Assembly: GCF_000739595.1 (NCBI RefSeq)
Contig: NZ_BBJP01000005.1
Coordinates: forward strand, 1-64,000
Reading direction: 5' to 3'
Length of the DNA: 64,000 nucleotides
DNA from: Halorubrum halophilum
Lineage (GTDB): Archaea; Halobacteriota; Halobacteria; Halobacteriales; Haloferacaceae
Shown here: positions 8,754 through 25,424 of the stretch, piece after piece
How positions within the stretch are numbered: position 1 is the first letter of the stretch
Layout: each line of letters starts with the position of its first letter
Notes under the pieces: model-generated
What the model saw: the letters and a program-made list of their open reading frames with translations, nothing else
Databases searched by the model: none
Told to the model about the DNA's origin: nothing
Translations under genes and position numbers: made by a program

Positions 8754-9005
8754 ATGCTTGAAGCTACCAACGAACTCGGGAACGTCGCACTGCAGGCCGG
8801 TGGAACGCTGACTGACGCCAACGCCGCGGCAGCACTCGCTGTCGGGCTGGCGGCGCTCGGTGCGGGCTACGCCGAGCGGGGGATCGGTTCCGCGGCCGTC
8901 GGCGCGATGGCCGAGGACGACGATCTGTTCGTCAACGGGCTCATTCTGACGGTCCTCCCCGAGACGATTGTCATTCTCGCACTCGTCGTCGTCTTCATCG
9001 TCTAA
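8754..9005 (+). CDS. atpK: A-type ATP synthase proteolipid subunit K (c ring)
   Basis: 83 residues forming two membrane helices joined by a short polar loop (AEDDD, about 53-57). The second helix carries the ion-binding carboxylate Glu70 in the stretch LPETIVILAL, and the first helix is rich in Gly and Ala for tight ring packing (AALAVGLAALGAG). Multiple copies form the rotating ring that drives synthesis of ATP with the proton gradient. The two-helix, single-carboxylate form is the ordinary archaeal type. No sodium-site signature is obvious, so protons are the likely ion. It is separated from atpE by only 22 bases. Confidence 0.93.
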   Translation: MLEATNELGNVALQAGGTLTDANAAAALAVGLAALGAGYAERGIGSAAVGAMAEDDDLFVNGLILTVLPETIVILALVVVFIV

Positions 9006-9027
9006 GCGGCACCCCCTTTCCACACCA

Positions 9028-9606
9028 ATGAGTTTGGACACTGTCGTTGAGGACGTTCGAGACGAAGCCCGCGCGCGTGCAGAGGAAATCCGTGAGGCGG
9101 CGGAGTCCGAGGCGGACGAGATCGTCGCCGAGGCGGAGGCCGATGCCGAGCGCATCCGCGAAGAGCGGCTCGCCGAGGTCGATCGACAGATCGACCAGGA
9201 GCGCGAGCAGACGCTCTCCTCGGCCAAACTCGAGGCCAAACAGGAGCGGCTCGGGGCCCGTCGTGACGTCTTAGAGGACGTCTACGACGACGTCGAGGCC
9301 GCCATCGAGGGGCTCGACGGCGACCGGCGCCGCGAGCTGACCGAGACGCTGCTCGACGCGACTCTCGCGGAGTTCGACGACGACGCAGATGTCGCCGTCT
9401 ACACCCACGCCGAGGACGTCGAACTCGTCGAGGAGCTCGTCGCCGACCGCAACGCCGAGGTCGACGGCGAAGTTGACTGTCTCGGCGGCGTCGTCGCGGA
9501 GAGCGACACCTCTCGCGTTCGCGTGAACAACACGTTCGACTCGATCCTGGAGTCCGTCTGGGACGACGAGTTGAAGAACATCTCGGAGCAGCTGTTCGAC
9601 CAATGA
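9028..9606 (+). CDS. atpE: A-type ATP synthase subunit E (peripheral stalk)
   Basis: 192 residues. The N-terminal half is a long charged coiled coil (MSLDTVVEDVRDEARARAEEIREAA...) and the C-terminal half is the alpha/beta head that binds the A and B subunits. It pairs with subunit H. A frame extension upstream to 8968 exists but reads through atpK; the ATG at 9028 gives the canonical start. Its TGA overlaps the atpC start by four bases (ATGA), a sign of translational coupling. Confidence 0.92.
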   Translation: MSLDTVVEDVRDEARARAEEIREAAESEADEIVAEAEADAERIREERLAEVDRQIDQEREQTLSSAKLEAKQERLGARRDVLEDVYDDVEAAIEGLDGDRRRELTETLLDATLAEFDDDADVAVYTHAEDVELVEELVADRNAEVDGEVDCLGGVVAESDTSRVRVNNTFDSILESVWDDELKNISEQLFDQ

Positions 9607-10649
9607 GCGCCGTCGGGAGCTCGAACCCAGAGTACGTCGTCGCGCGGGTTCGTGCCCGCCGCGGCAGCCTCTACGGCGACGAGGAGTACCGGAAGCTGAC
9701 CCGGATGGGCCCGGCGGAGATCGCCCGGTTCATGGAGGAGTCGAGCTACGGCGCGGAGATCAACGCGCTCGGGAGTCGCCACGGCGGCGTGGACCTGATC
9801 GAGTACGCGTTGAACCGGAACCTCGCCGAGCAGTTCGACGACATCCTCGACTGGAGCGAGGGCGCGCTGTACGACCTGATCGCCCGGTACCTCCGGAAGT
9901 TCGACGCCTGGAACGTGAAGACGGTCATCCGCGGCGTCTACACCGACGCGGACCAGTCGGCGATCGAGGTCGATCTGATCCGCGCCGGCGAGTTCGACGA
10001 CCGGCTGATCCGGCGGCTGCTCGAGGCCGACTCGATCGACGCGGTCGTCGAGGTGCTCGAAGACACCATCTACGGGGACCCGCTGCGGGAGGCGTACGCC
10101 GAGTACGAGGAGACGGACACGCTCGTGCCGCTGGAGAACGCCGTCGACCGCGCGTTCTACGAACGGCTCCTGTCGGGGCTCGGCGGCGACGAGCCGACCC
10201 GTCAGTACGAGGCGTTCCTCAGGGCGGAGGTCGACTTCCGGAACGCGATTAACGCCCTCCGGCTCGCCCGGTCGGGCGCGGACATCGACCCCGCGGCGTA
10301 CTTCATCGAGGGCGGCGAGCTGTTCACTCGCGGGTCGCTCGCGCGGCTCGCGCGGAACCTCGACGAGCTCGTGGAGTACATCGCCGACAGCCAGTACGGT
10401 GAGGAGCTCGGTCCCGCGCTGCGCGAACTCGAGGAGGCGGACAGCCTCATCGCGTTCGAGCACGCGACCGACGCCGCCCTGCTGGCGTACGGTGATCAGC
10501 TCGGCACGATCCACCCGGTGTCGGTGACGCCGGTGATCTCGTACATCCTCGCGAAGGAGCGCGAGGTCGAGAACATCCGGGCGATCGCCCGCGGGAAGGA
10601 GGCCGGCCTGTCGGCCGACGAGATCGAATCGGAGCTGGTGATAACATGA
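9603..10649 (+). CDS. atpC: A-type ATP synthase subunit C (central stalk adaptor)
   Basis: 348 residues, close to the usual length for archaeal subunit C/V-type d. It is a three-lobed helical funnel that links the central shaft to the proteolipid ring. The sequence opens with ...NPEYVVARVRARRGSLYG and ends with ILAKEREVENIRAIARGKEAGLS, a conserved C-terminal segment of the family. The start overlaps the atpE stop by four bases and its own stop overlaps the atpF start by four bases, so E, C and F look translationally coupled. Confidence 0.93.
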   Translation: MSAVGSSNPEYVVARVRARRGSLYGDEEYRKLTRMGPAEIARFMEESSYGAEINALGSRHGGVDLIEYALNRNLAEQFDDILDWSEGALYDLIARYLRKFDAWNVKTVIRGVYTDADQSAIEVDLIRAGEFDDRLIRRLLEADSIDAVVEVLEDTIYGDPLREAYAEYEETDTLVPLENAVDRAFYERLLSGLGGDEPTRQYEAFLRAEVDFRNAINALRLARSGADIDPAAYFIEGGELFTRGSLARLARNLDELVEYIADSQYGEELGPALRELEEADSLIAFEHATDAALLAYGDQLGTIHPVSVTPVISYILAKEREVENIRAIARGKEAGLSADEIESELVIT

Positions 10650-10975
10650 GCCAGGAGATCGCCGTCGTCGGGAGCCCGGAGTTCACGACCGGATTCCGGC
10701 TCGCCGGCGTGCGGAAGTTCGAGAACGTACCGGACGACGAGAAGGACGAGCGGCTCGACGACGCCGTCGAACGGACCCTCGACGACGAGGGAACCGGCAT
10801 CATCGTGATGCACACCGACGACCTCGACCACCTCTCGCGGGGGACCCGCGAGTCGGTGGAGGGGAGCATCGAGCCCGTGCTCGTGACGCTCGGCGGGTCC
10901 GGCGCCGGCAGCGGCGGGCTGCGCGACCAGATCAAACGAGCCATCGGGATCGACCTGATGGAGGAGGACGACTAA
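10646..10975 (+). CDS. atpF: A-type ATP synthase subunit F (central stalk)
   Basis: 109 residues with the family's small alpha/beta fold: an opening strand [19 protein letters not shown], a central strand [13 protein letters not shown] and the motif around PVLVTLGG. Subunit F sits on the rotor beside subunit D and can modulate ATPase activity. ATG overlaps the atpC stop (ATGA). Only one base separates its stop from atpA. Confidence 0.92.
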
Positions 10976-10976
10976 T

Positions 10977-12755
10977 ATGAGTAAAGCAGAATCCACGGAG
11001 ACCACCATCAGCGAAGACGGTGTTATCCAAAGCGTGAGCGGTCCGGTCGTGAGCGCCCGCGACCTCGACGCCCGCATGAACGACGTCGTCTACGTCGGCG
11101 ACGAAGGCCTCATGGGGGAAGTGATCGAGATCGAAGGCGACATCACGACCATTCAGGTGTACGAGGAGACCTCCGGGGTCGCCCCCGGCGAACCCGTCGA
11201 GAACACGGGCGAGCCGCTGTCGGTTGACCTTGGTCCGGGCATGCTGGACGCCATCTACGACGGCGTCCAGCGTCCCTTGGACGTGCTGGAGGGCAAGATG
11301 GGCAGTCCGTACCTCGACCGCGGGGTCGACGCGCCCGGCATCGACCTCGAGAAGGAGTGGGAGTTCGAACCCACCGTCGAGGTCGGCGACGAGGTCGGCC
11401 GCGGCGACGTGGTCGGCGTCGTCGAGGAGACGGTCACCATCGACCACAAGGTGATGGTGCCGCCGGACGCGCTCGAGGAGGGCGAGACCACCGAGGTCAC
11501 CGCCGTCGAGTCGGGCTCGTTCGACGTCACCGAGACGGTTGCCGAGCTCGCCAACGGGACGGACGTCTCGATGCACCAGGAGTGGCCCGTCCGCGAGGCG
11601 CGCCCCTCCGAGAACAAGAAGACGCCCCGGACGCCGCTGGTGTCCGGCCAGCGCATCCTCGACGGCCTGTTCCCCATCGCGAAGGGCGGAACGGCCGCGA
11701 TTCCGGGGCCGTTCGGCTCCGGGAAGACGGTCACGCAGCACCAGCTCGCGAAGTACGCCGACGCGGACATCATCGTCTACGTCGGGTGCGGCGAGCGCGG
11801 CAACGAGATGACCGAGGTCATCGAGGACTTCCCCGAGCTGGAGGACCCGGCCAACGGCAACCCGCTGATGGCCCGCACCTCGCTCATCGCGAACACCTCG
11901 AACATGCCCGTCGCGGCGCGTGAGTCCTGTATCTACACGGGGATCACGATCGCCGAGTACTACCGCGACATGGGGTACGACGTGGCGCTGATGGCCGACT
12001 CCACCTCGCGGTGGGCGGAGGCCATGCGCGAGATCTCCTCCCGGCTGGAGGAGATGCCCGGCGAGGAGGGGTACCCCGCGTACCTCGCCGCCCGGCTCGC
12101 GCAGTTCTACGAGCGCGCCGGCTACTTCGAGAACGTCAACGGGACGGAAGGGTCCGTCTCGGCGATCGGCGCGGTGTCGCCGCCCGGCGGCGACTTCTCC
12201 GAGCCGGTCACCCAGAACACGCTGCGTATCGTGAAGACGTTCTGGGCGCTCGACGCGGACTTGGCGGAGCGCCGCCACTTCCCGTCGATCAACTGGAACG
12301 AGTCGTACTCGCTGTACAAGGATCAGCTCGATCCCTGGTTCGAAGACGAGGTCGCCGACGACTGGTCCGAGAAACGCCAGTGGGCGGTCGACGTGCTCGA
12401 CGAGGAGACCGAGCTGCAGGAGATTGTCCAGCTCGTCGGGAAGGACGCCCTGCCCGACGACCAGCAGCTCACCCTCGAGGTCGCGCGCTACCTGCGCGAG
12501 GCGTACCTCCAGCAGAACGCGTTCCACCCGGTGGACACGTTCTGTCCGCCGGAGAAGACGTACCTCATGCTGACGACGATCGAGACGTTCAACGACGAGG
12601 CGTTCAAGGCGCTCGAAGCGGGCGTCCCCGTCGAGGAGATCGTCGACACCGAGGCCGCCCCCCGGATCAACCGGATCGGCGTCCAAGAGGACTACGAGGA
12701 GTACATCGAGGAGCTCAAAGCGGACATCAGCGAAGAACTCCGGAGCCTCTACTAA
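10977..12755 (+). CDS. atpA: A-type ATP synthase catalytic subunit A
   Basis: 592 residues, normal length with no intein. It has the family P-loop [10 protein letters not shown] (about 244-253), the non-homologous insertion characteristic of A/V-type A subunits (about 110-215) and the [14 protein letters not shown] motif near the active site. Three copies alternate with subunit B in the head and make ATP as the central shaft turns. It starts one base after the atpF stop and ends one base before atpB, in the core of the operon. Confidence 0.96.
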
Positions 12756-12756
12756 C

Positions 12757-14178
12757 ATGAAAGAGTACCAAACTATCACCGAGATCAGCGGCCCCCTCGT
12801 GTACGCCGAGGTCGACGAGGCGATCGGGTACGACGAGATCGTCGAGATCGAGACGGCACAGGGCGAGACGCTGCGTGGACAGGTGCTCGAATCCTCGGAG
12901 GGCGTCGTCGCCATCCAGGTGTTCGAGGGCACCTCCGGTATCGACCAGAACGCGTCCGTTCGCTTCCTGGGCGAGACGATGAAGATGCCCGTCACCGAGG
13001 ACCTGCTCGGGCGGGTCCTTGACGGCTCCGGCCGCCCCATCGACGACGGCCCGGAGATCGTCCCCGAGGAGCGACAGGACATCGTCGGCGCGGCGATCAA
13101 CCCGTACTCCCGGGAGTACCCCGAGGAGTTCATCGAGACGGGCGTCTCCGCGATCGACGGCATGAACACGCTCGTCCGCGGCCAGAAGCTCCCGATCTTC
13201 TCCAGTTCCGGCCAGCCGCACAGCCAGCTGGCGATGCAGATCGCCCGGCAGGCCAGCGTGCCGGAAGAAGAGGAGGGCGACGACGAGGAGGGCTCCGAGT
13301 TCGCCGTCATCTTCGGCGCGATGGGGATCACCCAGGAGGAGGCCAACGAGTTCATGCAGGACTTCGAGCGCACCGGCGCGCTGGAGCGCTCCGTCGTCTT
13401 CATGAACCTCGCGGACGACCCCGCCGTCGAGCGGACGGTCACGCCGCGGATGGTGCTCACCACGGCCGAGTACCTCGCCTTCGAGAAGGACTACCACGTC
13501 CTCGTCATCCTGACGGACATGACCAACTACTGCGAGGCGCTCCGCGAGATCGGCGCGGCCCGCGAGGAGGTCCCGGGGCGACGCGGCTACCCCGGATACA
13601 TGTACACCGACCTGGCGCAGCTGTACGAGCGTGCCGGTCGGATTCAGGGGCGTGAGGGGTCGGTGACGCAGATCCCGATCCTCACGATGCCGGGCGACGA
13701 CGACACCCACCCGATCCCGGACCTGACTGGGTACATCACGGAGGGGCAGATCTACGTCGACCCCGATCTGAACAGTCAGGGGCTCCAGCCCCCGATCAAC
13801 GTCCTCCCCAGCCTGTCGCGGCTGATGGACGACGGGATCGGCGAGGGGCTCACCCGCGAGGACCACGCCGACGTGAAAGACCAGATGTTCGCGGCGTACG
13901 CGGAGGGTGAAGACCTCCGCGACCTCGTGAACATCGTCGGTCGAGAGGCGCTCTCGGAGCTCGACAACAAGTACCTCGACTTCGCTGACGCCTTCGAGTC
14001 CGAGTTCGTCGACCAGGGCTTCGACCAGAACCGAGACATCGAGGAGACGCTCTCGATCGGCTGGGACCTGCTCTCGATGCTTCCGAAAGACGCCCTCAAC
14101 CGGATCGACGAGGAGTTCATCGAGGAGTACTACCGCGAGGACGACTCCGAGCGCGAAGTCGTCGAAGCGGCCGACTGA
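12757..14178 (+). CDS. atpB: A-type ATP synthase regulatory subunit B
   Basis: 473 residues. It is the non-catalytic partner of subunit A: the normal P-loop lysine motif is absent and replaced by the ...[21 protein letters not shown] region typical of B subunits. An acidic insertion ([11 protein letters not shown], about 170) is a haloarchaeal feature. In many archaea atpD follows directly. Here the operon stops after atpB with a T-rich tract, and two light-related genes come before atpD. Confidence 0.95.
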
Positions 14179-14180
14179 TC

Positions 14181-14201
14181 GCGGTTTTTCCTCTACTCTT
14201 T
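14181..14201 (+). terminator. T-rich terminator-like tract after atpB
   Basis: Just after the atpB stop the DNA reads GCGGTTTTTCCTCTACTCTTT. Pyrimidine- and T-rich tracts without a strong hairpin are the usual haloarchaeal terminators. This suggests that the main ATP synthase transcript ends here and that the following regulator, bop and atpD are transcribed separately. Confidence 0.4.
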
Positions 14202-14367
14202 CGCAATACCGGCGAGCAGCCGCGCCGAGCGGCGACAGAAGACGGCACCAGCAGAGCGTCCGGCCGTCGGAAGCGATCGCCCGCCGCCGTCAGAGGCACA
14301 CGATCTCTGTCCCCTCTTCCTGTTTGTCTACCCGACATGTTTTGGTCGTTCAACACGATACTACCGT

Positions 14368-16044
14368 ATGGTACGGCCGGAGTTTTTGAAATCCGAGCCG
14401 AGAGCGGAACGGCCGACGCGCGGCCCCGGTTCGGGGACGTCGGCGAGCACCGACGCCGTCGGCGAGTCGCTGAAGACTCGCATGATGGACGAGGCACCAG
14501 TCGGGATCACGATCGCGGACGCGACCCAGCCGGACATGCCGTTGATCTACGTGAACGCCGCGTTCGAGCGCATGACCGGATACTCGCCGTCGTACGCGAT
14601 CGGTCGCAACTGCCGGTTCCTGCAGGGCGAGGAGACTCGGGAGAAGCCGGTGCGTCAGATGCGCGTCGCCATCGAGGAGGGGGAAGCCGTGACCGTCGAA
14701 CTCCGCAACTACCGCCGGAGCGGCGAACTGTTCTGGAACGAGGTGACGATCGCACCGCTCCGGGACGACACGGGGGATATCGCGTACTACGTCGGCTTCC
14801 AACAGGATGTCACGCGTCGCAAGCGGGCCGAACAGGCCGCTGCTGACCGCGCGGCGCGGATCGAGCACGAACGAACCGCACAGTCGCGTCTCTTGGAACG
14901 GTTGGACGGCGTCGTCGCCGACGTCACCGAAGCCGTAGCCCTGGCGTCGTCGCCGGGAGAGCTCCGACAGGAGGTCGTCCGGAGCATCGCGGACACCTAC
15001 ACCGGCGCGTGGATCGGGACGTACGATCCGGCGACTGAGACGGTCGAACTGCGAGTCGCGGACGGTAAGACCGGGTCCGAGATCGAAGCGATCCCCGTCG
15101 CAACCGGAAACACCGGCGCCCGATCGACGAACGCGGTTGTCGCGGCGGCGGTCGACGATCGGCATGTGCGGCTCGAATCGATCGGGCCGGACGAACCGAA
15201 CGAGCCGGCGGAGGCGGCTGCGGTCGCCGGCGTCCCGCTCTACTTCGGCGAGGCGACCTACGGGGCCATCGCCGTCTACGCACAGACCGAGGAGCTTCGG
15301 CGGCACGAACGCGACGTACTGACGGCGCTCGGACGAACCGTCGCGATCGGCATCAACGCGCTCGAGAGCCAGCGGACGCTCCGCGGCGAGAGCGTTGTCG
15401 AGTTCCAACTGACGCTCGGCGATCATCCGTTAGGTTCGTTCGCCGAGGCGCTGTCCTGCTCGCTCCAGCACATCAGTACCGTCGGCGACCGCGGCGAACG
15501 GTCGTTGCTGTTCGAACTCGACGGAGCGCCGGCTGTCGATGCCGAACGCATCCACGCGGCCGCCGAGGCGACGGGCGTTACGGTCCACGCGGTCCTCGTC
15601 GCGGAGACCGACGTCCCCGTGGTCGAGGTGTCGGTCGACGAGACGCCGCTGGAGGAGTTGCTCAGGGAGTACAGCGGTGAGCTGTGCGGCTGGGCCGTCG
15701 AGGACGGCACCGCGATCGCGACGATCGAGGTCGGACGGGAGGCCTTGGCGCGCTCGCTCGCGGCCGACGCGATGGAGCAGCTGGCGAACGTAGACCTCCG
15801 CAGCTATCGTCGGCGGGAGCAGACGCACGAGACCCGCCGCGAGTTCGTCGCCGAGATCGAGTCGCGGTTGACGGAGCGACAGCGAGCTGCGCTGATCCGC
15901 GCGCACACGAGCGGGTACTTCGAGTGGCCGCACGAGACGAGCGGAGACGAGCTCGCCGACTCGATGGGTGTCACCCGATCTACGTTCCACCAGCACCTGC
16001 GAGCGGCACAACGCAAGATCGCGGCCGCGATCCTCGACCGCTGA
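14368..16044 (+). CDS. bat: Bat-like bacterio-opsin activator with LOV photosensor, GAF and HTH_10 domains
   Basis: 558 residues. Residues ~35-150 form a PAS domain of the LOV class: it has the photoactive cysteine motif GRNCRFLQ (79-86, Cys82), the flavin-binding asparagines in RNYRRSG and FWNEVTI (114, 124) and the Gln of YYVGFQQDVT (145/146). Residues ~180-340 look like a GAF domain, then a Bat-type spacer, and ~500-555 is the HTH_10 DNA-binding domain (LTERQRAALIRAH...ADSMGVTRSTFHQHL). Bat activates bop in Halobacterium salinarum under low oxygen and light; here the intact LOV motif suggests direct blue-light sensing. It ends 118 bases before bop on the same strand. Identity as the bop activator is inferred from architecture and position. 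Confidence 0.88.
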   Translation: MVRPEFLKSEPRAERPTRGPGSGTSASTDAVGESLKTRMMDEAPVGITIADATQPDMPLIYVNAAFERMTGYSPSYAIGRNCRFLQGEETREKPVRQMRVAIEEGEAVTVELRNYRRSGELFWNEVTIAPLRDDTGDIAYYVGFQQDVTRRKRAEQAAADRAARIEHERTAQSRLLERLDGVVADVTEAVALASSPGELRQEVVRSIADTYTGAWIGTYDPATETVELRVADGKTGSEIEAIPVATGNTGARSTNAVVAAAVDDRHVRLESIGPDEPNEPAEAAAVAGVPLYFGEATYGAIAVYAQTEELRRHERDVLTALGRTVAIGINALESQRTLRGESVVEFQLTLGDHPLGSFAEALSCSLQHISTVGDRGERSLLFELDGAPAVDAERIHAAAEATGVTVHAVLVAETDVPVVEVSVDETPLEELLREYSGELCGWAVEDGTAIATIEVGREALARSLAADAMEQLANVDLRSYRRREQTHETRREFVAEIESRLTERQRAALIRAHTSGYFEWPHETSGDELADSMGVTRSTFHQHLRAAQRKIAAAILDR

Positions 16045-16105
16045 GCGGACTCCCTCGACCGCGACGCCCTCCCTTCACGGAGATTCTTCCGGCTCTCGAC
16101 GACGG

Positions 16106-16162
16106 ACCACACCAGTTGTGTACGCCGTTTAGTATCGATCGTTCCGTATATTTACTTGCGTC
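16106..16162 (+). promoter_or_regulatory. bop promoter with Bat-UAS-like element
   Basis: ACCACACCAGTTGTG (16106-16120) resembles the H. salinarum bop activator site as I recall it (ACCcnACTAGTTnGG), sharing ACC, the ACnAGTT core and the last G. A clear TATA box TATATTTA (16147-16154) lies 9-16 bases before the first bop ATG, or about 10-19 before the second. The spacing between the two is 26 bases, longer than in H. salinarum, which weakens the match. Alternatively the UAS resemblance is chance. Confidence 0.4.
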
Positions 16163-16912
16163 ATGATGGCACAACCCGGTAGCGAAGGGATTTGGCTCTG
16201 GATCGGGACGCTAGGCATGTTCCTCGGGATGCTGTACTTCATCGCGAGGGGTTGGGGAGAGACCGACAGACGGCGGCAGGAGTTCTACATCGTGACGATA
16301 TTCATCACTGCCATCGCGTTCGTCAACTATCTCGCGATGGCGCTCGGGTTCGGGTTGACGACGGTGACGCTCGGCGGCGAAGAGGTGCCGATCTACTGGG
16401 CCCGGTACACTGACTGGCTGTTCACGACGCCGCTCCTGCTCGTCGACCTCGGGCTGCTCGTCGGGGCGACACGGAACCAGCTCGCCTCGCTGGTCGGGCT
16501 CGACGTGTTGATGATCGGCACCGGCGCGATCGCGACGCTGTCGACGAGCGCGGCCGTGCTCTCCGCGGGCGGGACCCGGCTCGTCTGGTGGGGCGTCTCC
16601 ACCGGCTTCCTGCTCGTGCTCCTGTACATGCTGTACGGCTCGCTCGACGAGAAGGCGTCGCAGCTGTCCGGCTCCGCCGCGTCGACGTTCAGCACCCTCC
16701 GGACGCTGATCGTCGTCGTCTGGCTGGTGTATCCCGTCTGGTGGCTCCTCGGGACCGAGGGGTTACAGATCGTCTCGCTCAACATCGAGACGGCGGGGTT
16801 CATGGTGCTCGATCTGGTCGCGAAGGTCGGATTCGGGTTTATCCTGTTGTCGAGCCGAGAGGTGCTCGACGCCGCCGGCTCGGCGATGGCGGAGCCCGGA
16901 GCGGCCGACTAG
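16163..16912 (+). CDS. bop: Bacteriorhodopsin (light-driven proton pump)
   Basis: 249 residues, seven membrane helices. All residues of the proton path are present: Arg81, Asp84 and Asp95 in helix C ([20 protein letters not shown]82, D85, D96 of bacteriorhodopsin), Glu199 and Glu209 of the release group, Asp217 and the retinal Schiff-base Lys221 ([12 protein letters not shown]). Asp at the cytoplasmic donor site separates it from sensory rhodopsins, and Asp84 from halorhodopsin. A Thr replaces the Ala next to the counter-ion (RYADW to RYTDW). It pumps protons outward in light, feeding the ATP synthase encoded around it. No brp/blh or carotenoid gene is nearby, so retinal must be made elsewhere. 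Start may be the first or second ATG (16163 or 16166). Confidence 0.95.
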
Positions 16913-16937
16913 CCGGGACAGCGGACGAGCCGAGACC

Positions 16938-16957
16938 GACGGACGCGGGAGTCCGTC
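16938..16957 (+). terminator. Hairpin between bop and atpD
   Basis: GACGGAC-GCGGGA-GTCCGTC is a perfect 7-bp stem with a 6-base loop, starting 26 bases after the bop stop. It is followed by AACAATAAAAGG, which reads as a TATA-like box for atpD (about 16961-16972). The hairpin may end or stabilise the bop mRNA and isolate atpD transcription. Confidence 0.4.
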
Positions 16958-17006
16958 GAGAACAATAAAAGGTTAACAGGCTCGGTTCGTTACCTCCTTC
17001 CAATAG

Positions 17007-17702
17007 ATGGCCAAGGACGTCAAACCGACGCGCAAGAACCTGATGGCGATCGAGGACCGCATCGAGCTCTCCGAGCGCGGTCACGACACGCTTGAACAGA
17101 AGCGTGACGGCCTCATCATGGAGTTCATGGACATCCTCGATCAGGCGCAGGACGTCCGCTCGGACGTCTCCGAGAACTACGAGACGGCCCAGCGCAAGAT
17201 CGACATGGCCCGCGCGATGGAGGGCGACGTGGCGGTTCGCGGCGCGGCCGCGGCGCTGAAAGAGCACCCCGAGATCACGACTCAGTCGAAGAACATCATG
17301 GGCGTCGTGGTCCCGCAGATCGAGTCCTCGAAGGTGAAGAAGAGCCTCGACGAGCGGGGATACGGGCTGCTCGGCTCTTCCGCGCGGATCGACGAGGCCG
17401 CGGACGCCTACGAAGAGCTGTTGGAGAAGATCATCCTCGCCGCTGAGGTCGAGACGGCGATGAAGAAGATGCTCACGGAGATCGAGACGACCAAGCGCCG
17501 CGTGAACGCCTTGGAGTTCACGCTCCTTCCGACCCTGTACGAGAACCAGGAGTACATCGAGCAGAAGCTCGAAGAGCAGGAGCGCGAGGAGATCTTCCGG
17601 ATGAAGAAGATCAAGGCCAAGAAGGAGGAAGAGGAAAAGGCGGAAGCCGAGGCCGAAGCCGCCGAGGCCGCCGCGACCGAAGAGCCGGAGCCCGCGGACT
17701 GA
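17007..17702 (+). CDS. atpD: A-type ATP synthase subunit D (central rotor shaft)
   Basis: 231 residues. The start [25 protein letters not shown]... and the C-terminal half ([21 protein letters not shown]) are signatures of the A/V-type D subunit, a long antiparallel coiled coil that forms the rotor shaft with subunit F. The tail ends in a Glu/Ala-rich run. It is on the same strand as the rest of the operon but 2.8 kb away from atpB, separated by the bat-like gene and bop. A TATA-like AATAAAAGG about 40 bases upstream suggests an independent promoter. Confidence 0.93.
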
Positions 17703-17752
17703 CGCCCCCGAACCGATTCGTTCTCGCGTCTCTCAATCTCATCTTCGGTTTC

Positions 17753-18172
17753 ATGTCCTGTCCCCACTGCGACGCCGCCGTCGTCGCGTTCGTCGTCCCG
17801 CCCGCGCTCCGCGAGCACGCGCCGGACTCCCTGACTGCGATCTGCACTCGCTGTCTCCGGACGTTTCCGGCCAGTGAGGCCGGTGTCGCGCCCGAGAGGC
17901 GTTCCGGCGACGAGCCTCCTACCGACGCCGACACTGATCCCGACTTTTCGGCGGTCGACCCCGCGTTTCCCGCCGGCGAGGCCGGCGTCGCCCTCGCGCT
18001 CGCCTGCGGCCGGTTGGAGTCGCTCGCGCTCAACCGGGCGTCGATCGCGGCGCTCGTCGAGCACGCGGAGCGGTCGGGGGCAGACGCCTTCGCCTTCTTC
18101 GAGCGGCTCGACGCCCCCGACGCCGCGTTCGACCTCGAACGGCGGCGGTCGGCGCTGCTCGATATGGTGTAG
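17753..18172 (+). CDS. Small haloarchaeal zinc-ribbon protein (DUF6276-like)
   Basis: 139 residues. The N-terminus has two Cys pairs, CPHC (3-6) and CTRC (31-34), that could bind one zinc. A variable acidic linker follows, then a helical C-terminal domain (GVALALACGRLESLALNRASIAALVEHAERSGADAFAFFERL). I recall this as a conserved haloarchaeal protein of unknown function, often near atpD. It lies 50 bases after atpD on the same strand, so it may be cotranscribed. No catalytic motif is seen. Confidence 0.7.
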   Translation: MSCPHCDAAVVAFVVPPALREHAPDSLTAICTRCLRTFPASEAGVAPERRSGDEPPTDADTDPDFSAVDPAFPAGEAGVALALACGRLESLALNRASIAALVEHAERSGADAFAFFERLDAPDAAFDLERRRSALLDMV

Positions 18173-18315
18173 CGGCTCCGTTGCAATCTTCAGCGAGTGA
18201 CACTCCGATCCCGTGGCGATCAGTGCGGACACAGCGGTGATCGATAGCGGGAGTATGTGTGTCAGTGCGGTTGATCGGCTATTTATAAGTGATCGAGTGG
18301 TGTTGCTGTCGGCTG

Positions 18316-18620
18316 TTTATACGTGGTTGGTGGTGCTGTGGTGACGGCTTTCAAAGCCCCAGTCGGCGAGGCCGGCGCACGCTCGCTGCGCTCCTCACTC
18401 GGTCACGTTGCTCCCTCGTTGCGGTGCTTGCGTCGCCTGCGCCGGCCTCGCCGACTGCCCCTTTGAGTCCCGCCCGCCCCGCACAGCACCGCACCTCACG
18501 CCTCCCCAGCCTCGTCGCTGGCGGCTGTCGCCGCCAGCGACTCCCTCGCGCGACGCTCCTCGTAGCCGCCGATGGCGGCTACTCGGAGGCGCGCGCCACC
18601 GCACATCTCTTTATAAATAA
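18316..18620 (+). repeat. Dispersed structured intergenic element, copy A
   Basis: This copy fills most of the 552-base gap between two convergent genes. It begins with a TATA-like TTTATAC, 17 bases before GGTGA, and ends with TTTATAAATA. Stem P1 pairs 18361-18379 with 18438-18456 (19 bp). Then comes the invariant core GCCCCTTTGAGTCC, stem P2 pairs 18514-18524 with 18531-18541 (11 bp) and stem P3 pairs 18562-18570 with 18574-18582 (9 bp). All stems are perfect. Four other copies in this window share the spine but have different stem sequences. The flanks (18173-18315 and 18621-18724) hold nothing else I can identify. Confidence 0.85.
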
Positions 18621-18724
18621 TCGTCGCTGTCACTTATGTACTTTTAAATAGCGTCTTGCCACCATCGATCTGCAATACCCACTCCCGACATCGATCGAGA
18701 AGAGCCGTTCAGTGGCCAGCCGTT

Positions 18725-19105
18725 TCAGCCGGCTCTGTTCTCGTCTCGGTCGTCGTCGATATCGATCCCGTCGGGATCGTTCCACTCGTTCGTCTCGTCG
18801 GCGTCGTCCGCCTCGGTCCCGGCCGGCCCGAGCCCCTTCTCCCCGCGCCGTCGCTCGTGGACGGCGAGGCCGGCCTTGCGCGCGTCGCTCTCCGGCGCGT
18901 ACGGGTCCTCGGACGGGTCGTAGTCGCGCTCGCCGCGTTCGAACACGTACGCGAAGAAGCCGAACAGCGGGACGAAAAAGCAGATGAGCGCCCACTTCCG
19001 CCGGTCCATTCCGTGGTTCGGCGCGTCGAGGTAGGCGTAGGCCGCGAACGCGACGAGCCACGCGAGCGGGACGCCGACGAGGATGACGGCGACGAGCGGT
19101 TGCAT
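18725..19105 (-). CDS. Small membrane protein, PLDc_N-like N-terminus
   Basis: 126 residues. Two hydrophobic helices (VAVILVGVPLAWLVAFAAYAY and WALICFFVPLFGFFAYVF) flank a short polar loop (DAPNHGMDRRK). The second helix, with its R-R-K-W-A lead-in, resembles the PLDc_N/'negative regulatory' small-membrane domain found in many prokaryotes. A long acidic cytoplasmic tail follows (RDYDPSEDPYAPESDARK...DDRDENRAG). ATG at 19105 is chosen because MQPLVAV begins the first helix and a TATA-like TTTATG lies about 25-30 bases upstream. Divergent from the photolyase gene. Function unknown. Confidence 0.7.
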   Translation of the reverse strand: MQPLVAVILVGVPLAWLVAFAAYAYLDAPNHGMDRRKWALICFFVPLFGFFAYVFERGERDYDPSEDPYAPESDARKAGLAVHERRRGEKGLGPAGTEADDADETNEWNDPDGIDIDDDRDENRAG

Positions 19106-19208
19106 ACCCTCGCTTCGACCTCGACGACATAAACGCACGGGTGGGATCATCGACTCTGTGCCGATCGACCGCCGAAGGACACTATCCGGCGGAGCCCGTA
19201 CCGGTCCC

Positions 19209-20624
19209 ATGCAGCTGTTCTGGCACCGGCGCGATCCGCGGACTCGTGACAACGCGGGGCTCGCGGCGGCCGCGGAGAGAAAGGGAGAGGCCGTCGTTCC
19301 CGTCTTCGTCTACGACACCGACCTGTTCGGGGCGACGGGCGCGCGCAAGCGGGCCTTCTTCCTTCGACACGTCAAGCGACTGAAGGCGCGCTACCGTGAG
19401 CTCGACAGCGACCTGATCGTTCGGGCGGGCGACCCCGAAGATGTCCTCGTCGAACTCGCCGACGAGTACGACGTCGAGACCGTGTTCCACAACGAGTACT
19501 ACCGACCGGCTCGCCGGAACCGCCAGCGAGCCGTCGAGGAGGCGCTCGCGAACGCCGGCGTCGCGACCGAGGCCCGCACCGACGCCGTGCTGGTCGATCC
19601 CGGCCGGCTGGAAGAGCGCTACGCGAACCACAGTCGGTTTCACAGCGACTGGGAGGCCGTTCCCACGCCCGAGCCGTACCCGGAGCCGGACGCGGACGCG
19701 CTGGTCGACGTGCGGGATGGGACGGCCGTCGCTGAGCCTAACGCCGACACGGACGTCGACCTCGGGAGCGACATCGACCTCCCGGAAGCCGGCTACCGGG
19801 CCGCCCGCAAGCGATTCGACGACTTCCTCGCTCACGGGATCCGGTCGTACGCCGACACGCGAGACGACCTCGCCCGCGCGGTCGAGGCGCCGACTCACGC
19901 GGTCTCGCGTATGTCGCCGTATCTCGCGGTCGGGGCGATCGGGATCCGAGAGGTGTGGACGGGCGCGAGCGACGCGTTCGAGGCGGCGACGGGCGAGGAG
20001 CGCCGCAACGTCGACAAGTATCGGTACGAGCTGTCGTGGCGCGAGCAGATGTACCACCTGCTCTACTACAACCCCGACCTTGCCGTGGCGAACTACAAGT
20101 CGTTCCCCAACCGAATCGCGTGGCGCGATAACGACGAGGACTTCGAGGCGTGGACGCGCGGCGAGACCGGCTACCCGCTCGTCGACGCCGGGATGCGCCA
20201 GCTGAACGCGGAGGGGTACGTCCACAACCGCCCGCGACAGGTGGTCGCGAGCTTCCTCGCCAAACACCTCCTGATCGATTGGCGACGCGGGGCGCGCTAC
20301 TTCGCGAAACGGTTGATCGACCACGACCACGCCTCGAACCACGGGGCGTGGCAGTGGACCGCCTCTACCGGCACCGACTCGGTGGACGTGCGCATCTTCG
20401 ATCCGGTGGCTCAGATGGCGAAGTACGACGCGAACGCGACGTTCGTGAAGGCGTACGTCCCCGAGCTGCGCGACGTACCGGCCGAGAGAATCGTCGACTG
20501 GCCGACCCTCTCGCGAGGCGAGCGCGAGGACCTCGCGCCCGACTACCACCACCCGATCGTCGACCGGGACGAGGGGTACGAGCGCGCACAACGGGTCTTC
20601 GAGGAGGCGCTCGGGAAGCGGTGA
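19209..20624 (+). CDS. phr2: Class I CPD photolyase (Phr2-type)
   Basis: 471 residues. It has the N-terminal antenna-chromophore domain (MQLFWHRRDPRTRDNAGL) and the C-terminal FAD domain with the classic photolyase block: W-x-x-G-x-T-G-x-P-L-V-D-A-G-M-R-Q-L, HNRPRQVVASFLAKHLLIDWR, and ASNHGAWQW. It repairs cyclobutane pyrimidine dimers with blue light, expected in a sun-exposed halophile. The upstream in-frame extension (to 19083) runs into the divergent gene's promoter, so ATG 19209 is preferred. It lies 2.3 kb from bop and 3.2 kb from the LOV regulator, but there is no evidence here of shared control. Confidence 0.92.
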   Translation: MQLFWHRRDPRTRDNAGLAAAAERKGEAVVPVFVYDTDLFGATGARKRAFFLRHVKRLKARYRELDSDLIVRAGDPEDVLVELADEYDVETVFHNEYYRPARRNRQRAVEEALANAGVATEARTDAVLVDPGRLEERYANHSRFHSDWEAVPTPEPYPEPDADALVDVRDGTAVAEPNADTDVDLGSDIDLPEAGYRAARKRFDDFLAHGIRSYADTRDDLARAVEAPTHAVSRMSPYLAVGAIGIREVWTGASDAFEAATGEERRNVDKYRYELSWREQMYHLLYYNPDLAVANYKSFPNRIAWRDNDEDFEAWTRGETGYPLVDAGMRQLNAEGYVHNRPRQVVASFLAKHLLIDWRRGARYFAKRLIDHDHASNHGAWQWTASTGTDSVDVRIFDPVAQMAKYDANATFVKAYVPELRDVPAERIVDWPTLSRGEREDLAPDYHHPIVDRDEGYERAQRVFEEALGKR

Positions 20625-20642
20625 GGGGCGGTTACGCGACCC

Positions 20643-21260
20643 CTACGCCAACATCGCGGCCGCAAGGAACATCCCTCCGGCCGCGACGGGTGGGATGGTG
20701 AGGTTGTCGTCGACGGCAACGCCGCGGACGATCGGCGGGAGCCCGTCGGCAATCGCGGCGGGGATCGCGCCAGAGAGCGCGACGGCGACGCCGGCGCCGC
20801 CCCCGAACGCCGGGACGGTGAAGGGAAGTGCCAACGCGAAACTGACGAGGAACATCGCGATCCACGCGACGGGCCGCTTCGACTCGGTCGCGTCGTTGTC
20901 TCCGAGTGCGCCGCTGACGGGGTCACCGACCGACAGCATCCACATCGCGGGGATCGCGAGCGTCGGCTGCAACAGGAGGACCACGCCGGTCATACTCACC
21001 TGGTAGAGCGCGTAGCCGGCGACGCTGTCGGACTCGTACTCCCGGGTGAGGTGCCGGTAGACGGCGTGATCGAGCCCGACGACGAGCCGGAGGAACTCCA
21101 AGAAGCAGACGACGGCGAGCGCGGCCACGAGGAAGTACCGGGTCTCCGTCCACGTGAGCCAGCCGAGCAGGAACGGTGCGGGGTACAGCGTCCCGCCAAA
21201 GTGGACCAGCCGCCGCTCGAACTCCACTTCGGCCCGCCACTCCGCCGCCGGAAGGGGCAC
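20643..21260 (-). CDS. Dolichol/phytol kinase-like membrane protein
   Basis: 205 residues with about six membrane helices. Two family motifs of the CTP-dependent polyprenol kinase group are visible: GDPVSGALGD (about 117-126), where the substrate CTP is thought to bind, and near the C-terminus VAVDDNLTIP (about 183-192). The enzyme would phosphorylate a dolichol-type lipid carrier for glycoprotein synthesis, or a related isoprenoid alcohol. The end lies 3 bases from glyS, downstream of it on the same strand, so they may share a transcript. Confidence 0.7.
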   Translation of the reverse strand: MPLPAAEWRAEVEFERRLVHFGGTLYPAPFLLGWLTWTETRYFLVAALAVVCFLEFLRLVVGLDHAVYRHLTREYESDSVAGYALYQVSMTGVVLLLQPTLAIPAMWMLSVGDPVSGALGDNDATESKRPVAWIAMFLVSFALALPFTVPAFGGGAGVAVALSGAIPAAIADGLPPIVRGVAVDDNLTIPPVAAGGMFLAAAMLA

Positions 21261-21263
21261 GGG

Positions 21264-23060
21264 TCAGTTGGTCTCGACGTCGGTCGCGACGGTCTCGTAG
21301 CGGTCCGCCAGCGCGTCGAACTCGCCGCCGGCGCGGAGCGCGGCCAGCTCCGCGGCCAGCTCCGCGGCCGGGACCCGGACCTGTGCCGCGGAGTCGCGCT
21401 CCCGAACGGTCACCGTCTCGTCGCCGTCGCCCTCGATTCCGTCGCGGTCGATCGTGACGCAGAACGGGGTCCCGACCTCGTCCTGTCGACGGTAGCGCCG
21501 CCCGATCGAGCCGGAGTCGTCGTACGCGACCGCCAGCCCCGCCTCGCGGAGGTCCGCGGCGACGCGGTCGGCCAGCTCGGTGAGCCGGTCGTCGTTGGTC
21601 ACGAGCGGGAAGACCGCGGCGTCTTGGGGCGCGATCTCGGGCTCCAGAGAGAGGTACGTTCGCTCCTCGCCGTCGACCTCGTCTTCGCTGTAGGCGTGCG
21701 CCAGCAGGGTCTGAACCGTCCGGCCCACGCCGAATGAGGGCTCGACGACGTGCGGCGTGAGGTGCTCGCCGTTCTCGGTCACCGTCTCCACCGAGAAGTT
21801 CGCCACGTCGGCGTCGACCTCGTGGGTCTCCGCGTCGTCGCCCTCGCCCACGGTCACCTCGACCGTCTCGCCGTCGAACGCGTCGGGGTCGCGCTCGGCG
21901 AGCGTCTCAAGGGCCTCGGCGACCGCGGCGGCGTCACCGCCGAACTCGGGGCCGAGCACGGACATATCGGGGTCGACGGTCGCGCGCTCGACCGTCTTCG
22001 GCTCGTCGTAGCGCTTGAACACGGTGAACGCGTCGTCGCCGTGCTCGCCGTGCTTCGAGAGGTCGTAGTCGGAGCGGTACGAGAAGCCCGCGATCTCGAT
22101 CCAGTCGCCGTCGACCTCGCTCTCCGCGTCCCAGCAGTCGGCGGCGTAGTGTGCGCGCTCGCCCGCGAGGTGCTGGCGGAACCGGAACCGATCGAGGTCG
22201 ACGCCGACCCGGTCGTACCACTCCTTCGCGACGCCGAGGTAGTAGCCGACCCACGGGGAGCCGATGACCCCCTCGTCGACCGCCTCGCCGACCGTCGTCT
22301 CGACGTACCCGCCGTCCTCGGCCTCCTGTTCGGTCGCGGGGTACAGCCGGACCTCGACGTCGCGCACGCGGTCCAGCGGCGGCTCGTCCTCCTCGGGGTC
22401 GATGAACTGTTCGAGTTCGGCCTGCGTGAACTCGCGCAGCCGGAGGAGCCCGCCGCGCGGGGAAATCTCGTTGCGGTAGGCGGGGCCGATCTGGGTGATC
22501 CCGAACGGGAGGTTCCCGCGGGCGTACTCCTTCAGCCGCGGGAACTCGACGAAGATACCCTGGGCCGTCTCCGGTCGGAGGTAGCCGGGTTGGGCGTCGC
22601 CCGGGCCGATGTCGGTCGCGAACATGAGGTTGAAGTCCTCAACTGATTCGCCCGCGAGCGCGGTGCCGCAGGACGGGCAGGCGATGTCGTTGTCGGCGAT
22701 GAGCTCTTCGACTTCCGACCCGGGCAGCGCTTCGGCGTCCTCGATCTCCGTGACGGCCTCGACGAGGTGGTCGGCGCGGTGGGACTCGCCGCACTCGGGG
22801 CACTCGACGAGCATGTCGTCGAACCCCTCCAGGTGACCGGACGCCTCGAAGACGGGCTCCGGCATGATCGTCGGCGCCTCGATCTCGCGGTTCCCCTCCC
22901 GGAGGGTGAACCGGTCGCGCCACGCGTCCTCGACGTTCTTCTTCAGCGCCGCGCCCTGCGGGCCGAAGGTATAGAAGCCGGCGGTGCCGCCGTACGCGCC
23001 GTTCGAGCCGAAGAAGAACCCGCGACGCTTCGCCAGCTCGACGATCGCCTCGGACGCCAT
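21264..23060 (-). CDS. glyS: Glycine--tRNA ligase (alpha2 type)
   Basis: 598 residues, the usual length for archaeal/eukaryal-type dimeric GlyRS. It opens with a class II catalytic domain (KRRGFFFGSNGAYGGTAGFYTFGPQG), has motif 2 (RNEISPRGGLLRLREFTQ) and the C-terminal anticodon-binding domain (PLVTNDDRLTELADRVAADLREAGLAV). Two CxxC pairs (CPEC and CPSC, about 84-133) form a zinc knuckle inserted in the catalytic domain. It begins immediately after the stop of the CBS protein with no gap, so the pair is probably one operon. Confidence 0.95.
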   Translation of the reverse strand: MASEAIVELAKRRGFFFGSNGAYGGTAGFYTFGPQGAALKKNVEDAWRDRFTLREGNREIEAPTIMPEPVFEASGHLEGFDDMLVECPECGESHRADHLVEAVTEIEDAEALPGSEVEELIADNDIACPSCGTALAGESVEDFNLMFATDIGPGDAQPGYLRPETAQGIFVEFPRLKEYARGNLPFGITQIGPAYRNEISPRGGLLRLREFTQAELEQFIDPEEDEPPLDRVRDVEVRLYPATEQEAEDGGYVETTVGEAVDEGVIGSPWVGYYLGVAKEWYDRVGVDLDRFRFRQHLAGERAHYAADCWDAESEVDGDWIEIAGFSYRSDYDLSKHGEHGDDAFTVFKRYDEPKTVERATVDPDMSVLGPEFGGDAAAVAEALETLAERDPDAFDGETVEVTVGEGDDAETHEVDADVANFSVETVTENGEHLTPHVVEPSFGVGRTVQTLLAHAYSEDEVDGEERTYLSLEPEIAPQDAAVFPLVTNDDRLTELADRVAADLREAGLAVAYDDSGSIGRRYRRQDEVGTPFCVTIDRDGIEGDGDETVTVRERDSAAQVRVPAAELAAELAALRAGGEFDALADRYETVATDVETN

Positions 23061-23909
23061 TTATAAGCCCTCCAGCAGGTCTACGTCGCGCACGATGCCG
23101 TCGAGGTCGGTGCCGTTGACCAGCGGCACCTGCTCGATGTCGTTGCTGATGAGCTCCTGTGCGACCTCCTTGGCGGTCCGCGCCCCGCTGACCGTCACGA
23201 GGTCCTCGGTCATGAAGTGGCGTGTCGCTCCCACGGGCAGCTCCACGTTCCGGGTCGGGAGGTAGCGGGCGCCGGTCGCCTTGATCCCCTCCCACGACCA
23301 CTCGGAGTCCTGTTCGGCGATGGAGTCGCCCGTGCTGGCCTCGCCCTCGACGACGCGGGCGACCTCCAGTACGTCGACCTCGGTGAGGATGCCGGCGAGC
23401 CCGGCGTCGTCGTCGAGCACCACGGCGTAGGGGACGTTCGCCAGCCCGATCTCCCGCTCCGCGACCGGCAGCGGGGTCTCGGTGTACGTCGCGTTGACCG
23501 CGCTGGTCGCGAGCCCGCCGACCTCGGTGTCGCCGTCGATCTCGCCGCGGGCGATGGCCCGCACCACGTCGGTGACGGTGAGGATGCCGACGAGCGAATC
23601 GCCGTCGACGACCGGGAGCCGGCGCGAGTCCTCGGCGGCCATCGTGGCGGCGGCGTCGCCGATCGCGGCGTCGGCGCCGATCGTCGGTACCCCGCGCATG
23701 AGCAGCGCGAGCTGGTCCTCGTCCGGCTGCTCGATCAGGTCGTCGCGGGAGACGAGCCCGCGGTACACCTCCTCGCCGTCGACGTCCTTCACGACCGGCA
23801 CCGACGAGAAGCCGTACTCCTGGATGTACTCCAGCACGTCGTTCCGGCTCCCCGGGATCTCGACGACGACGAGATCCGACCGCGGCGTCATGGCGTCTGA
23901 TACGTTCAT
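23061..23909 (-). CDS. Four-CBS-domain protein
   Basis: 282 residues made of four CBS motifs in two pairs: around 1-60 (GFSSVPVVKDVDGEEVYRGLVSRDDL), 65-125 (DSRRLPVVDGDSLVGILTVTDVVRAI), 135-190 (PYAVVLDDDAGLAGILTEVDVL) and 225-282 (IEQVPLVNGTDLDGIVRDVDLL). CBS pairs bind adenine nucleotides, so this is likely an energy or nucleotide sensor. Its stop abuts the glyS start, suggesting coupling to glycyl-tRNA supply, though the link is unproven. ATG 23909 is set by the MNVSDAMTPRSD start and a TATA-like TATAC upstream on the minus strand (about 23936-23942). Confidence 0.88.
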   Translation of the reverse strand: MNVSDAMTPRSDLVVVEIPGSRNDVLEYIQEYGFSSVPVVKDVDGEEVYRGLVSRDDLIEQPDEDQLALLMRGVPTIGADAAIGDAAATMAAEDSRRLPVVDGDSLVGILTVTDVVRAIARGEIDGDTEVGGLATSAVNATYTETPLPVAEREIGLANVPYAVVLDDDAGLAGILTEVDVLEVARVVEGEASTGDSIAEQDSEWSWEGIKATGARYLPTRNVELPVGATRHFMTEDLVTVSGARTAKEVAQELISNDIEQVPLVNGTDLDGIVRDVDLLEGL

Positions 23910-24193
23910 GCACCGTCTTTCAGCGTGCCACCTCTTGTATACTGCGAAGGTGGTCCGCGAGCGGGCGGCGATCGACCGCGGTGTGTCACGGGCGATCGCG
24001 GGCCGTCGCGGGGCATCTCGCCGGGACGCCGGAGGTCGCGAATCGACGCTCTGACAACGAACCAATCAGTTCGTCAGATCGATGTCTCACTCCGTCACTT
24101 CCCCCGTGATCGACGACTGACACGGGCTCTCGTCACCGATTATCGCCTCAAAGCGCCGATCCGCCGACTGCGGACGCTCTTGGTCCGGAACGC
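23910..24193. other. Intergenic stretch without recognised genes
   Basis: This is most of the 312-base divergent gap between the CBS gene and the small DUF7556-like gene. Apart from the TATA-like box of the CBS gene near its left end and the promoter/operator at 24194-24218 on the right, I see no conserved motif, RNA gene or repeat. Confidence 0.5.
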
Positions 24194-24221
24194 TTATATG
24201 TACTGTGAACAATTCACAATC
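24194..24221 (+). promoter_or_regulatory. Promoter with palindromic operator overlapping the start site
   Basis: TTATAT (24194-24199) is a good TATA-like box 23-28 bases before the ATG at 24222, so the mRNA should be leaderless. Directly downstream is the perfect inverted repeat TGTGAA-CAA-TTCACA (24204-24218). A dimeric regulator bound there would cover the transcription start, so repression is the simple prediction. Confidence 0.6.
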
Positions 24222-24446
24222 ATGTCACGGAGTTCCACTCCATGGGACGACCCGGACCCCGATCACCGGCGGACGGCGCTGCCGACGGATCCGGCCCTCG
24301 ACGCCGACGACTCGCCGGACGTGATGGCGTCTATCGACGACTCCTCGTCGTCGCGACCGGAGCTCGTGATCGCGGACGTCTCCCGGGAGAACGCGTGGGT
24401 CTCGGTCACCGAGACCGACGCCACCGTCCTCGAAGAGTGGTGCTGA
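24222..24446 (+). CDS. Small haloarchaeal protein (DUF7556-like)
   Basis: 74 residues. The C-terminal part (SRPELVIADVSRENAWVSVTETDATVLEEWC) matches a short conserved haloarchaeal protein family I recall as DUF7556. It ends in Cys, and the first 35 residues are a disordered Asp/Pro/Thr-rich region. The frame extends upstream to 23925 but has no conserved content, and the TATA box at 24194-24199 fixes the ATG at 24222. No enzymatic motif is visible. Its promoter carries a perfect palindrome, so it is likely under a specific regulator. Confidence 0.65.
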   Translation: MSRSSTPWDDPDPDHRRTALPTDPALDADDSPDVMASIDDSSSSRPELVIADVSRENAWVSVTETDATVLEEWC

Positions 24447-24494
24447 ATCCGCTGAAACGACCGTAGACGCTCCCGTTTTTCCGCCCGTTTGAGG

Positions 24495-25424
24495 TCACTC
24501 CGAGCGTGTTTCGTCAGCGTCCGCCCCGGGTCGAACCCCGGCACCGACCTCCCACCCTCGGATCAGCGACGCGATCGTCCGACACGTCGGCGCCGACACG
24601 CTGAACCGGTCGGCGCGCTCGGTCGCGGCGCCGTAGATGGCGTCGACCTCGGTCCGCCGGCCCGCGGTCACGTCCTCGCACATCGACGACCGGTTGGCGG
24701 CGGTGTCGGCGGCGACGCGCTCGACGGCCGCGACCGCCTCATCGTCGCCGAGGCCGATCCCGTCGGCCCGGGCGACGCGCGCGACCTCGCGAGCCGCCTC
24801 GCGCGCCGCCTCCCCGCCCGGCCCGTCGAGGGTCCTTCCGTTCGAGAGCCGCGCGAGCGCCGAGGGGCCGTTGATCCCCGCGTTGACCGCGAGCTTCTCG
24901 TACCGGCGCCGGGGCATGTCCGCGGCGACGATCGTCTCGATCCCGGCCTCGTCGAACGCGTTCCCCACGCGCTCCGCGAGCGGGTCGTCCCCCCCGGAGA
25001 GCGCCCCGACGACGACCTCGCCGATACCCGTACACGTGACTCGACCGGGCTCGACGAACCGAGCGCCGTAGCTCGCGGTCCCCGCGAGGACGGTCGGGTC
25101 GAGCGCCGCGACCAGCCGCTCCTCCGTGAAGCCGTTCTGCAGCGAGCAGACCGCGTCGTACTCGCCGGTCGCGAGCGCCCGCGCGGCCGCGTCCGTGTCG
25201 TACGCCTTCGTCGTGACCACCGCGAGGTCCGCGGAGCGATGCGTTCCGTCGGTGAGCGCCCGTGGATGAACGCGCGCGTCGACCTCGCCGTCGATCCGGA
25301 GCCCGTCCTGTCGGACCCGTCGCATGTGCGGGTCGCGCCCGACGAGCGTGACCTCGTGGACCCGCGCCAGTAACCCCCCGACGAGGCTCCCGAGCGCGCC
25401 GGCGCCGTAGACGAGGACCTCCAT
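24495..25424 (-). CDS. panE: 2-dehydropantoate 2-reductase
   Basis: 309 residues. It reduces ketopantoate with NADPH in pantothenate/CoA synthesis. The N-terminal Rossmann motif is GAGALGSLVGG (about 7-17), NADPH contacts lie in TTKAYDTD (about 91-98), and the catalytic lysine region reads YEKLAVNAGINGPSALARLSNG. ATG 25424 gives MEVLVYGAGALGS; the ATG four codons upstream (25436) is less likely. It is on the same strand as thrC but 91 bases apart, with no sign of coupling. Confidence 0.88.
   Translation of the reverse strand: MEVLVYGAGALGSLVGGLLARVHEVTLVGRDPHMRRVRQDGLRIDGEVDARVHPRALTDGTHRSADLAVVTTKAYDTDAAARALATGEYDAVCSLQNGFTEERLVAALDPTVLAGTASYGARFVEPGRVTCTGIGEVVVGALSGGDDPLAERVGNAFDEAGIETIVAADMPRRRYEKLAVNAGINGPSALARLSNGRTLDGPGGEAAREAAREVARVARADGIGLGDDEAVAAVERVAADTAANRSSMCEDVTAGRRTEVDAIYGAATERADRFSVSAPTCRTIASLIRGWEVGAGVRPGADADETRSE

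Follow-up and report, generated by a model that had tools for sequence, protein, structure and literature searches.

The window analysed here, a stretch of 64,000 nucleotides from Halorubrum halophilum, carries the regulator gene bat and the opsin gene bop as a pair between the ATPase genes atpB and atpD (Table 1). The two genes lie on the same strand with the start of bop 118 bases 3' of bat, and an earlier note on this DNA had rightly described them as neighbours; the presence of bop and bat within the ATPase operon has also been published (PMC7755889). The bop product most resembles Bacteriorhodopsin 4pxk and cruxrhodopsin-3, and is assigned as a proton pump because the equivalents of the pump residues and of the retinal lysine given in Table 1 are present. 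Directly 3' of atpD lies a gene for a 139-aa DUF6276 protein with zinc-ribbon-like CxxC pairs (17753-18172, +), and a DNA photolyase gene (PF03441, PF00875; 19083-20624, +) follows about 2 kb 3' of bop. The retinal synthesis gene blh and a neighbouring lycopene-cyclase-like gene are found on a different contig (C102). A simple scan for Brz-like CPxCG zinc-finger genes gave no match at 9000-25000, nor did it give one in the bop/bat region of a relative of the H. salinarum type.

Table 1 Features of the bat-bop locus, in positions of the window
Feature	Position	Strand	Basis
atpB, upstream flank	12757..14178	+	ORF; order atpB-bat-bop-atpD conserved in relatives
bat, 558-aa one-component regulator LOV-GAF-BAT-HTH_10	14368..16044	+	ORF and Pfam
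LOV domain, residues 38-153	14479..14826	+	phmmer to solved LOV proteins; AlphaFold model
LOV signature GRNCRFLQ, residues 79-86	14602..14625	+	Translation of 14368-16041
Cys82, equivalent to YtvA Cys62 (adduct-forming)	14611..14613	+	Translation, phmmer alignment
Arg99, equivalent to YtvA Arg79	14662..14664	+	Conservation among surveyed Bats
Asn114, equivalent to YtvA Asn94	14707..14709	+	Translation, phmmer alignment
Asn124, equivalent to YtvA Asn104	14737..14739	+	Translation, phmmer alignment
Gln145, flavin N5-sensing glutamine, equivalent to YtvA Gln123	14800..14802	+	phmmer alignment; invariant in 64/64 Bats
Helix residues 149-192, LOV to GAF connection, probable signalling helix	14812..14943	+	DSSP on low-confidence full-length model; inference
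GAF domain	14962..15354	+	Pfam
BAT domain PF15915	15397..15849	+	Pfam
HTH_10 DNA-binding domain	15868..16023	+	Pfam
Conserved element CCACACCAGTTGTGTA, probable Bat-responsive upstream activator sequence (candidate)	16107..16122	+	Alignment upstream of bop
TTTA, probable TATA-like element	16128..16131	+	Block ~32-35 bases before bop start; TTA columns invariant; role inferred
bop, cruxrhodopsin-type bacteriorhodopsin	16163..16912	+	D85/T89/D96/K216 equivalents present
atpD, downstream flank	17007..17702	+	ORF; conserved order

The domains of Bat follow the order expected of a bacterioopsin activator, with Pfam matches to PAS_9 (residues 44-149), GAF (199-329), BAT (344-494) and HTH_10 (501-552). 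Its nearest relatives belong to named Halorubrum and Halobellus species. Most of the sampled relatives show an N-terminal Response_reg match; the window's Bat has none, and about 37 residues precede its LOV domain. Searching solved sequences with phmmer returned 151 matches at E <= 0.001, the best 60 of which are all LOV-type, including 6hmj (1.7e-34), YtvA (2pr5, 1.1e-29) and Chlamydomonas phototropin (about 1e-29). The earlier note had placed the signature GRNCRFLQ with its cysteine in the PAS domain, which the translation confirms, and the alignment sets Cys82 on YtvA Cys62, ruling out a cysteine misplaced relative to LOV photoreceptors. The asparagines and the glutamine pair listed in that note also occur in the stated order (Gln145 and Gln146 are encoded at 14800-14805). 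The switch residue, left there as either glutamine, is Gln145, since it aligns with YtvA Gln123, and Gln146 is thereby rejected. Likewise, the span 14602-14809 given in the note covers residues 79-147, a part of the LOV domain of about 38-153.

Using published YtvA numbering, every residue that defines LOV domains according to Yee et al. 2015 (YtvA G59, N61, R63, F64, L65, Q66, N94, N104 and Q123; PMC4682037) is found in the LOV domain of Bat, together with the cysteine. The flavin-contacting set is complete as well, comprising N114, N124, Q145 and the phosphate arginines R83 and R99. Arg99 is presumably the second FMN-phosphate arginine. All 47 Bats of the window's kind keep Cys82, Asn114 and Gln145 unchanged, with LOV identity going down to 47%; this invariance, with the 151 solved matches and the LOV-type best 60, argues that the signature did not arise by chance. 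In two of these Bats (L072, L140), the Asn124 position holds Gln or Thr. That the motif is a relic, left in a LOV-descended PAS domain that lost flavin binding, is highly improbable, as the full residue set is intact and invariant or nearly so; nothing speaks positively for this reading, and the nearest observation is the modest flavin content of the studied Bat protein BAT-LOV* after expression in E. coli (PMC4682037).

The predicted structure agrees with the LOV assignment. An AlphaFold model of residues 29-167 has a mean pLDDT of 73 and superimposes on LOV crystal structures (CrPhotLOV1, CagFbFP) in Foldseek with TMt 0.84-0.87 and an rmsd of 1.5-1.8 Å over ~105 columns, and both phmmer and Foldseek place the PAS fold nearest to LOV domains. 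Because the full-length model, built with 12 close relatives, is poor (mean pLDDT 61), structural claims are drawn from the LOV-domain model, and the full-length model contributes a tentative linker helix. Like YtvA and phototropin LOV1, to which it is 40-47% identical in structural alignment, the domain contains the Cys, Asn and Gln LOV set, whereas its output is a DNA-binding activator reached through GAF instead of a STAS or kinase domain.

Several related systems have been described, and two of them are Bats that lack the cysteine. H. salinarum Bat (OE3101R / VNG1464G) shares the LOV/PAS-GAF-BAT-HTH_10 plan and the role of bop activator, and its clade retains all flavin-pocket signature residues tested, save the cysteine. 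It differs in having His at that position (GANHRFLQ), in belonging to a clade without the phosphate arginine, and in a different bop neighbourhood; a close relative (L168) also shows a weak N-terminal receiver-like match. The GANHRFLQ Bat at locus L187 comes from a genome encoding a bop product with 100% identity to H. salinarum BR, in agreement with Losi et al., according to whom H. salinarum Bat lacks the cysteine (PMC4844311). The second, BAT-LOV* of Halorubrum hochstenium (Yee et al. 2015, PMC4682037), is of the same family and genus as the window's Bat, yet carries Pro at the cysteine position and Trp172, and falls in a clade without the phosphate arginine. Its residues Y163, W172, P188, Y247 and N252 match the archaerhodopsin-linked Pro clade in 10/10 members. 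Orthology with the window's Bat is thus ruled out, and the BAT-LOV* results are not transferable to it; Cys82 likewise excludes the window's Bat from the cysteine-less LOV* type. BAT-LOV* reconstitutes with FMN, FAD or riboflavin (PMC4682037). The position of its flavin-quenching Trp172 is Phe in the window's Bat, where Tyr141, adjoining the flavin, could act as a quencher; the same Tyr occurs in BAT-LOV*, and its mutation had little effect there (PMC4682037).

Archaeal LOV-HTH proteins combining LOV, GAF and HTH have also been reported, one arrangement being noted as Bat-like, and HTH domains are given for 30% of halobacterial LOV proteins in Losi et al. 2014 (PMC4844311). The passages concerned make no mention of bop linkage, a promoter element or a division of the cysteine by pump type. 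ALovD-1 of Halonotius, like the window's Bat, is a halophilic archaeal LOV protein with the cysteine; it is a histidine-kinase protein with a demonstrated photocycle, which proceeds at up to 3 M salt (PMC12202551), whereas the window's Bat is known here from sequence and model. Haloarchaeal LOV-HTH proteins (PMC4844311), a photocycling archaeal LOV domain (PMC12202551), a cysteine-less Bat (PMC4682037) and bat/bop within the ATPase operon (PMC7755889) were therefore already known.

In a survey of 293 genomes of the order searched for opsin, from which about 120 loci were fetched, 64 distinct LOV-containing Bats were found, having Cys (47), His (7) or Pro (10) at the Cys82 position. All but one of the 47 Cys-Bats are near a cruxrhodopsin-type bop (38 on the same strand, 8 opposite) whose product is 55-100% identical to the window's opsin, and at most of these loci bat is immediately 5' of bop on the same strand, often inside atpB-atpD. 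The 17 Cys-less Bats are all near opsins of less than 53% identity to the window's, with no Cys-Bat there; these opsins fall into a single clade that includes H. salinarum BR as well as those of most Halorubrum sampled, the latter here named archaerhodopsin-type. Locus and genome counts share ancestry and the tree needs only two changes, so Fisher and rank tests, which ignore this, are descriptive. A division of the cysteine by pump type, in which most bop-adjacent Bats keep the residue and the studied ones have lost it, was not described in any paper found in the open-licence literature searched. At two Halobellus inordinatus loci (L029, from 7855, and L069), codon 31 of bop is an in-frame TGA (RGW*ETD), so that an interrupted pump gene lies beside an intact Bat with the cysteine.

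The survey also bears on the function of the cysteine. It could be argued that the LOV domain is chiefly a flavin redox or oxygen sensor, as proposed for BAT-LOV*, with the cysteine serving as a redox thiol or minor light input. When the flavin of BAT-LOV* is reduced chemically, the protein changes shape, and signalling via the semiquinone is possible for LOV proteins lacking the cysteine (PMC4682037); moreover, H. salinarum induces bop at low oxygen through Bat (cited in PMC2253796). Yet redox sensing has no need of Cys82, which is nevertheless invariant in the 47 Bats, and two redox-capable clades lost it. In addition, the Arg99 equivalent is Arg in 42/47 Cys-Bats versus 0/17 Cys-less Bats, and is thus mostly kept alongside the cysteine and absent without it, as expected if Cys-less pockets no longer depend on the FMN phosphate. 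A chiefly redox-sensing role is consequently considered unlikely for the window's Bat.

A candidate target of Bat was found upstream of bop. Aligning the upstream regions revealed a block, CCnnACTAGTTGnGTA, at fixed spacing from the start, 53-57 bases in most loci and about -50 to -57 in most Cys-Bat loci. In H. salinarum, bop is preceded by a known upstream activator sequence, which also occurs near brp and crtB1 (PMC1447603, PMC2253796), and by analogy we infer that the block is its equivalent; the window offers both the bop linkage and a probable activator element, as expected of a bacterioopsin activator. The exact pattern CCNNACYRGTTGNGTA has a single match in the 3.68-Mb genome, namely the window's bop element. 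An element score of >=11/14 was reached by 40/47 bops with a Cys-Bat versus 9/67 bops without a Bat found nearby, and related but weaker versions precede bop at Cys-less Bat loci. This distribution, and the lack of a second exact match in the genome, make it rather improbable that Bat is photoactive but serves mainly other genes, its adjacency to bop reflecting block transfer. For such a reading, it may be noted that Halorubrum sp. CSM-61, the source of the one Cys-Bat with no opsin beside its gene, retains Bat after loss of bop from the locus, and that bat without bop has been reported in the ATPase operon (PMC7755889).

In Halorubrum sp. CSM-61 (L023:7670-7803), bop and the element are both absent, bat leads directly to atpD, and Bat with its cysteine is intact. 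Several of the loci with bop between atpB and atpD and no Bat nearby (L085-L091) keep a degenerate element at -56, e.g., CCATATATTTTGGGTA, which may thus still serve another factor. A GTTTTGGTCGT-like block also lies ~35 bases before the bat start (14331-14350); it is common to the relatives checked (L021-L025, L027), partly resembles the bop element and possibly reflects autoregulation or a core promoter. Motif matches upstream of bat covered 7-8/9 positions and were mostly not significant, hence autoregulation is not claimed.

Taken as a whole, sequence, fold, residue conservation, linkage and promoter element suggest that Bat of the window's Halorubrum is probably a one-component regulator that senses blue light and activates transcription of bop. 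The LOV domain would bind flavin, probably FMN given that Arg99 is kept, and blue light would lead to an adduct between Cys82 and flavin C4a. Gln145 would sense the protonated N5, and the change would travel along the post-LOV helix to the GAF, BAT and HTH_10 domains, whereupon the HTH would act at the element at 16107-16122 and raise bop transcription; the binding of flavin, the photocycle, the direction of the response and the contact of Bat with that element are each predictions. The view in the earlier note that direct blue-light sensing is likely thus holds as a prediction, based on LOV assignment, cysteine position, bop adjacency and the conserved promoter element. Its further suggestion that bop would then be under direct light control, rather than control only through oxygen, understates prior knowledge, and oxygen or redox state could still act through the flavin or GAF as a possible second input. 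Light induction of bop has been reported in H. salinarum, whose Bat lacks the cysteine, and needs Bat, Brz and Brb, the light/dark differences in bop mRNA and BR being small in the published tables (PMC3184054). Light control by itself is therefore no proof of adduct chemistry, and the cysteine is not necessarily used.

In the Bat tree, His-Bats and Pro-Bats form two separate clades (100/100 support each), and a Cys clade with GVNCRFLQ is the sister group of the His clade (100/100), in agreement with LOV-only trees. As few deep branches are resolved in the LOV-only tree that includes outgroups, the ancestral state is based on parsimony and on the outgroup LOV domains, which carry the cysteine. 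The cysteine is hence likelier ancestral, and two losses are the simplest history: most likely, it was lost once in the lineage of H. salinarum Bats (His) and once in that of archaerhodopsin-type Halorubrum Bats (Pro). More tentatively, and with somewhat less than even confidence, it could be speculated that two pump controls exist, with cruxrhodopsin-type bop under a blue-light LOV protein and BR and archaerhodopsin under Bats that lost the cysteine twice and now sense redox state. If so, the textbook Bat would descend from a light sensor and have become "blinded"; within the Bat family at least, this would run counter to the proposed origin of LOV photoreceptors from redox proteins. Three genomes, G260 (L070/L175), G263 (L068/L174) and G275 (L079/L171), carry both modules, i.e., a Cys-Bat with cruxrhodopsin-type bop and a His-Bat with H. 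salinarum-type BR; one cell could therefore run two pumps on two inputs.

Yee et al. 2015 regard a direct light response of Bat as a suggestion that still falls short of definitive proof (PMC4682037). The cysteine required for LOV photochemistry is missing from the Bats studied to date, whereas the window's Bat comes from a large group keeping it and is beside bop. With a candidate target site at hand, and Cys-less relatives to serve as natural controls, direct light control of bop becomes cleanly testable, and Bat may yield a salt-tolerant light-controlled activator. Finally, the window's genome encodes further LOV domains with the cysteine, GINCRFLQ (L189, C70) and GKDCRFLQ (L190, C91), both in histidine-kinase-like proteins, giving at least three LOV proteins in this genome.
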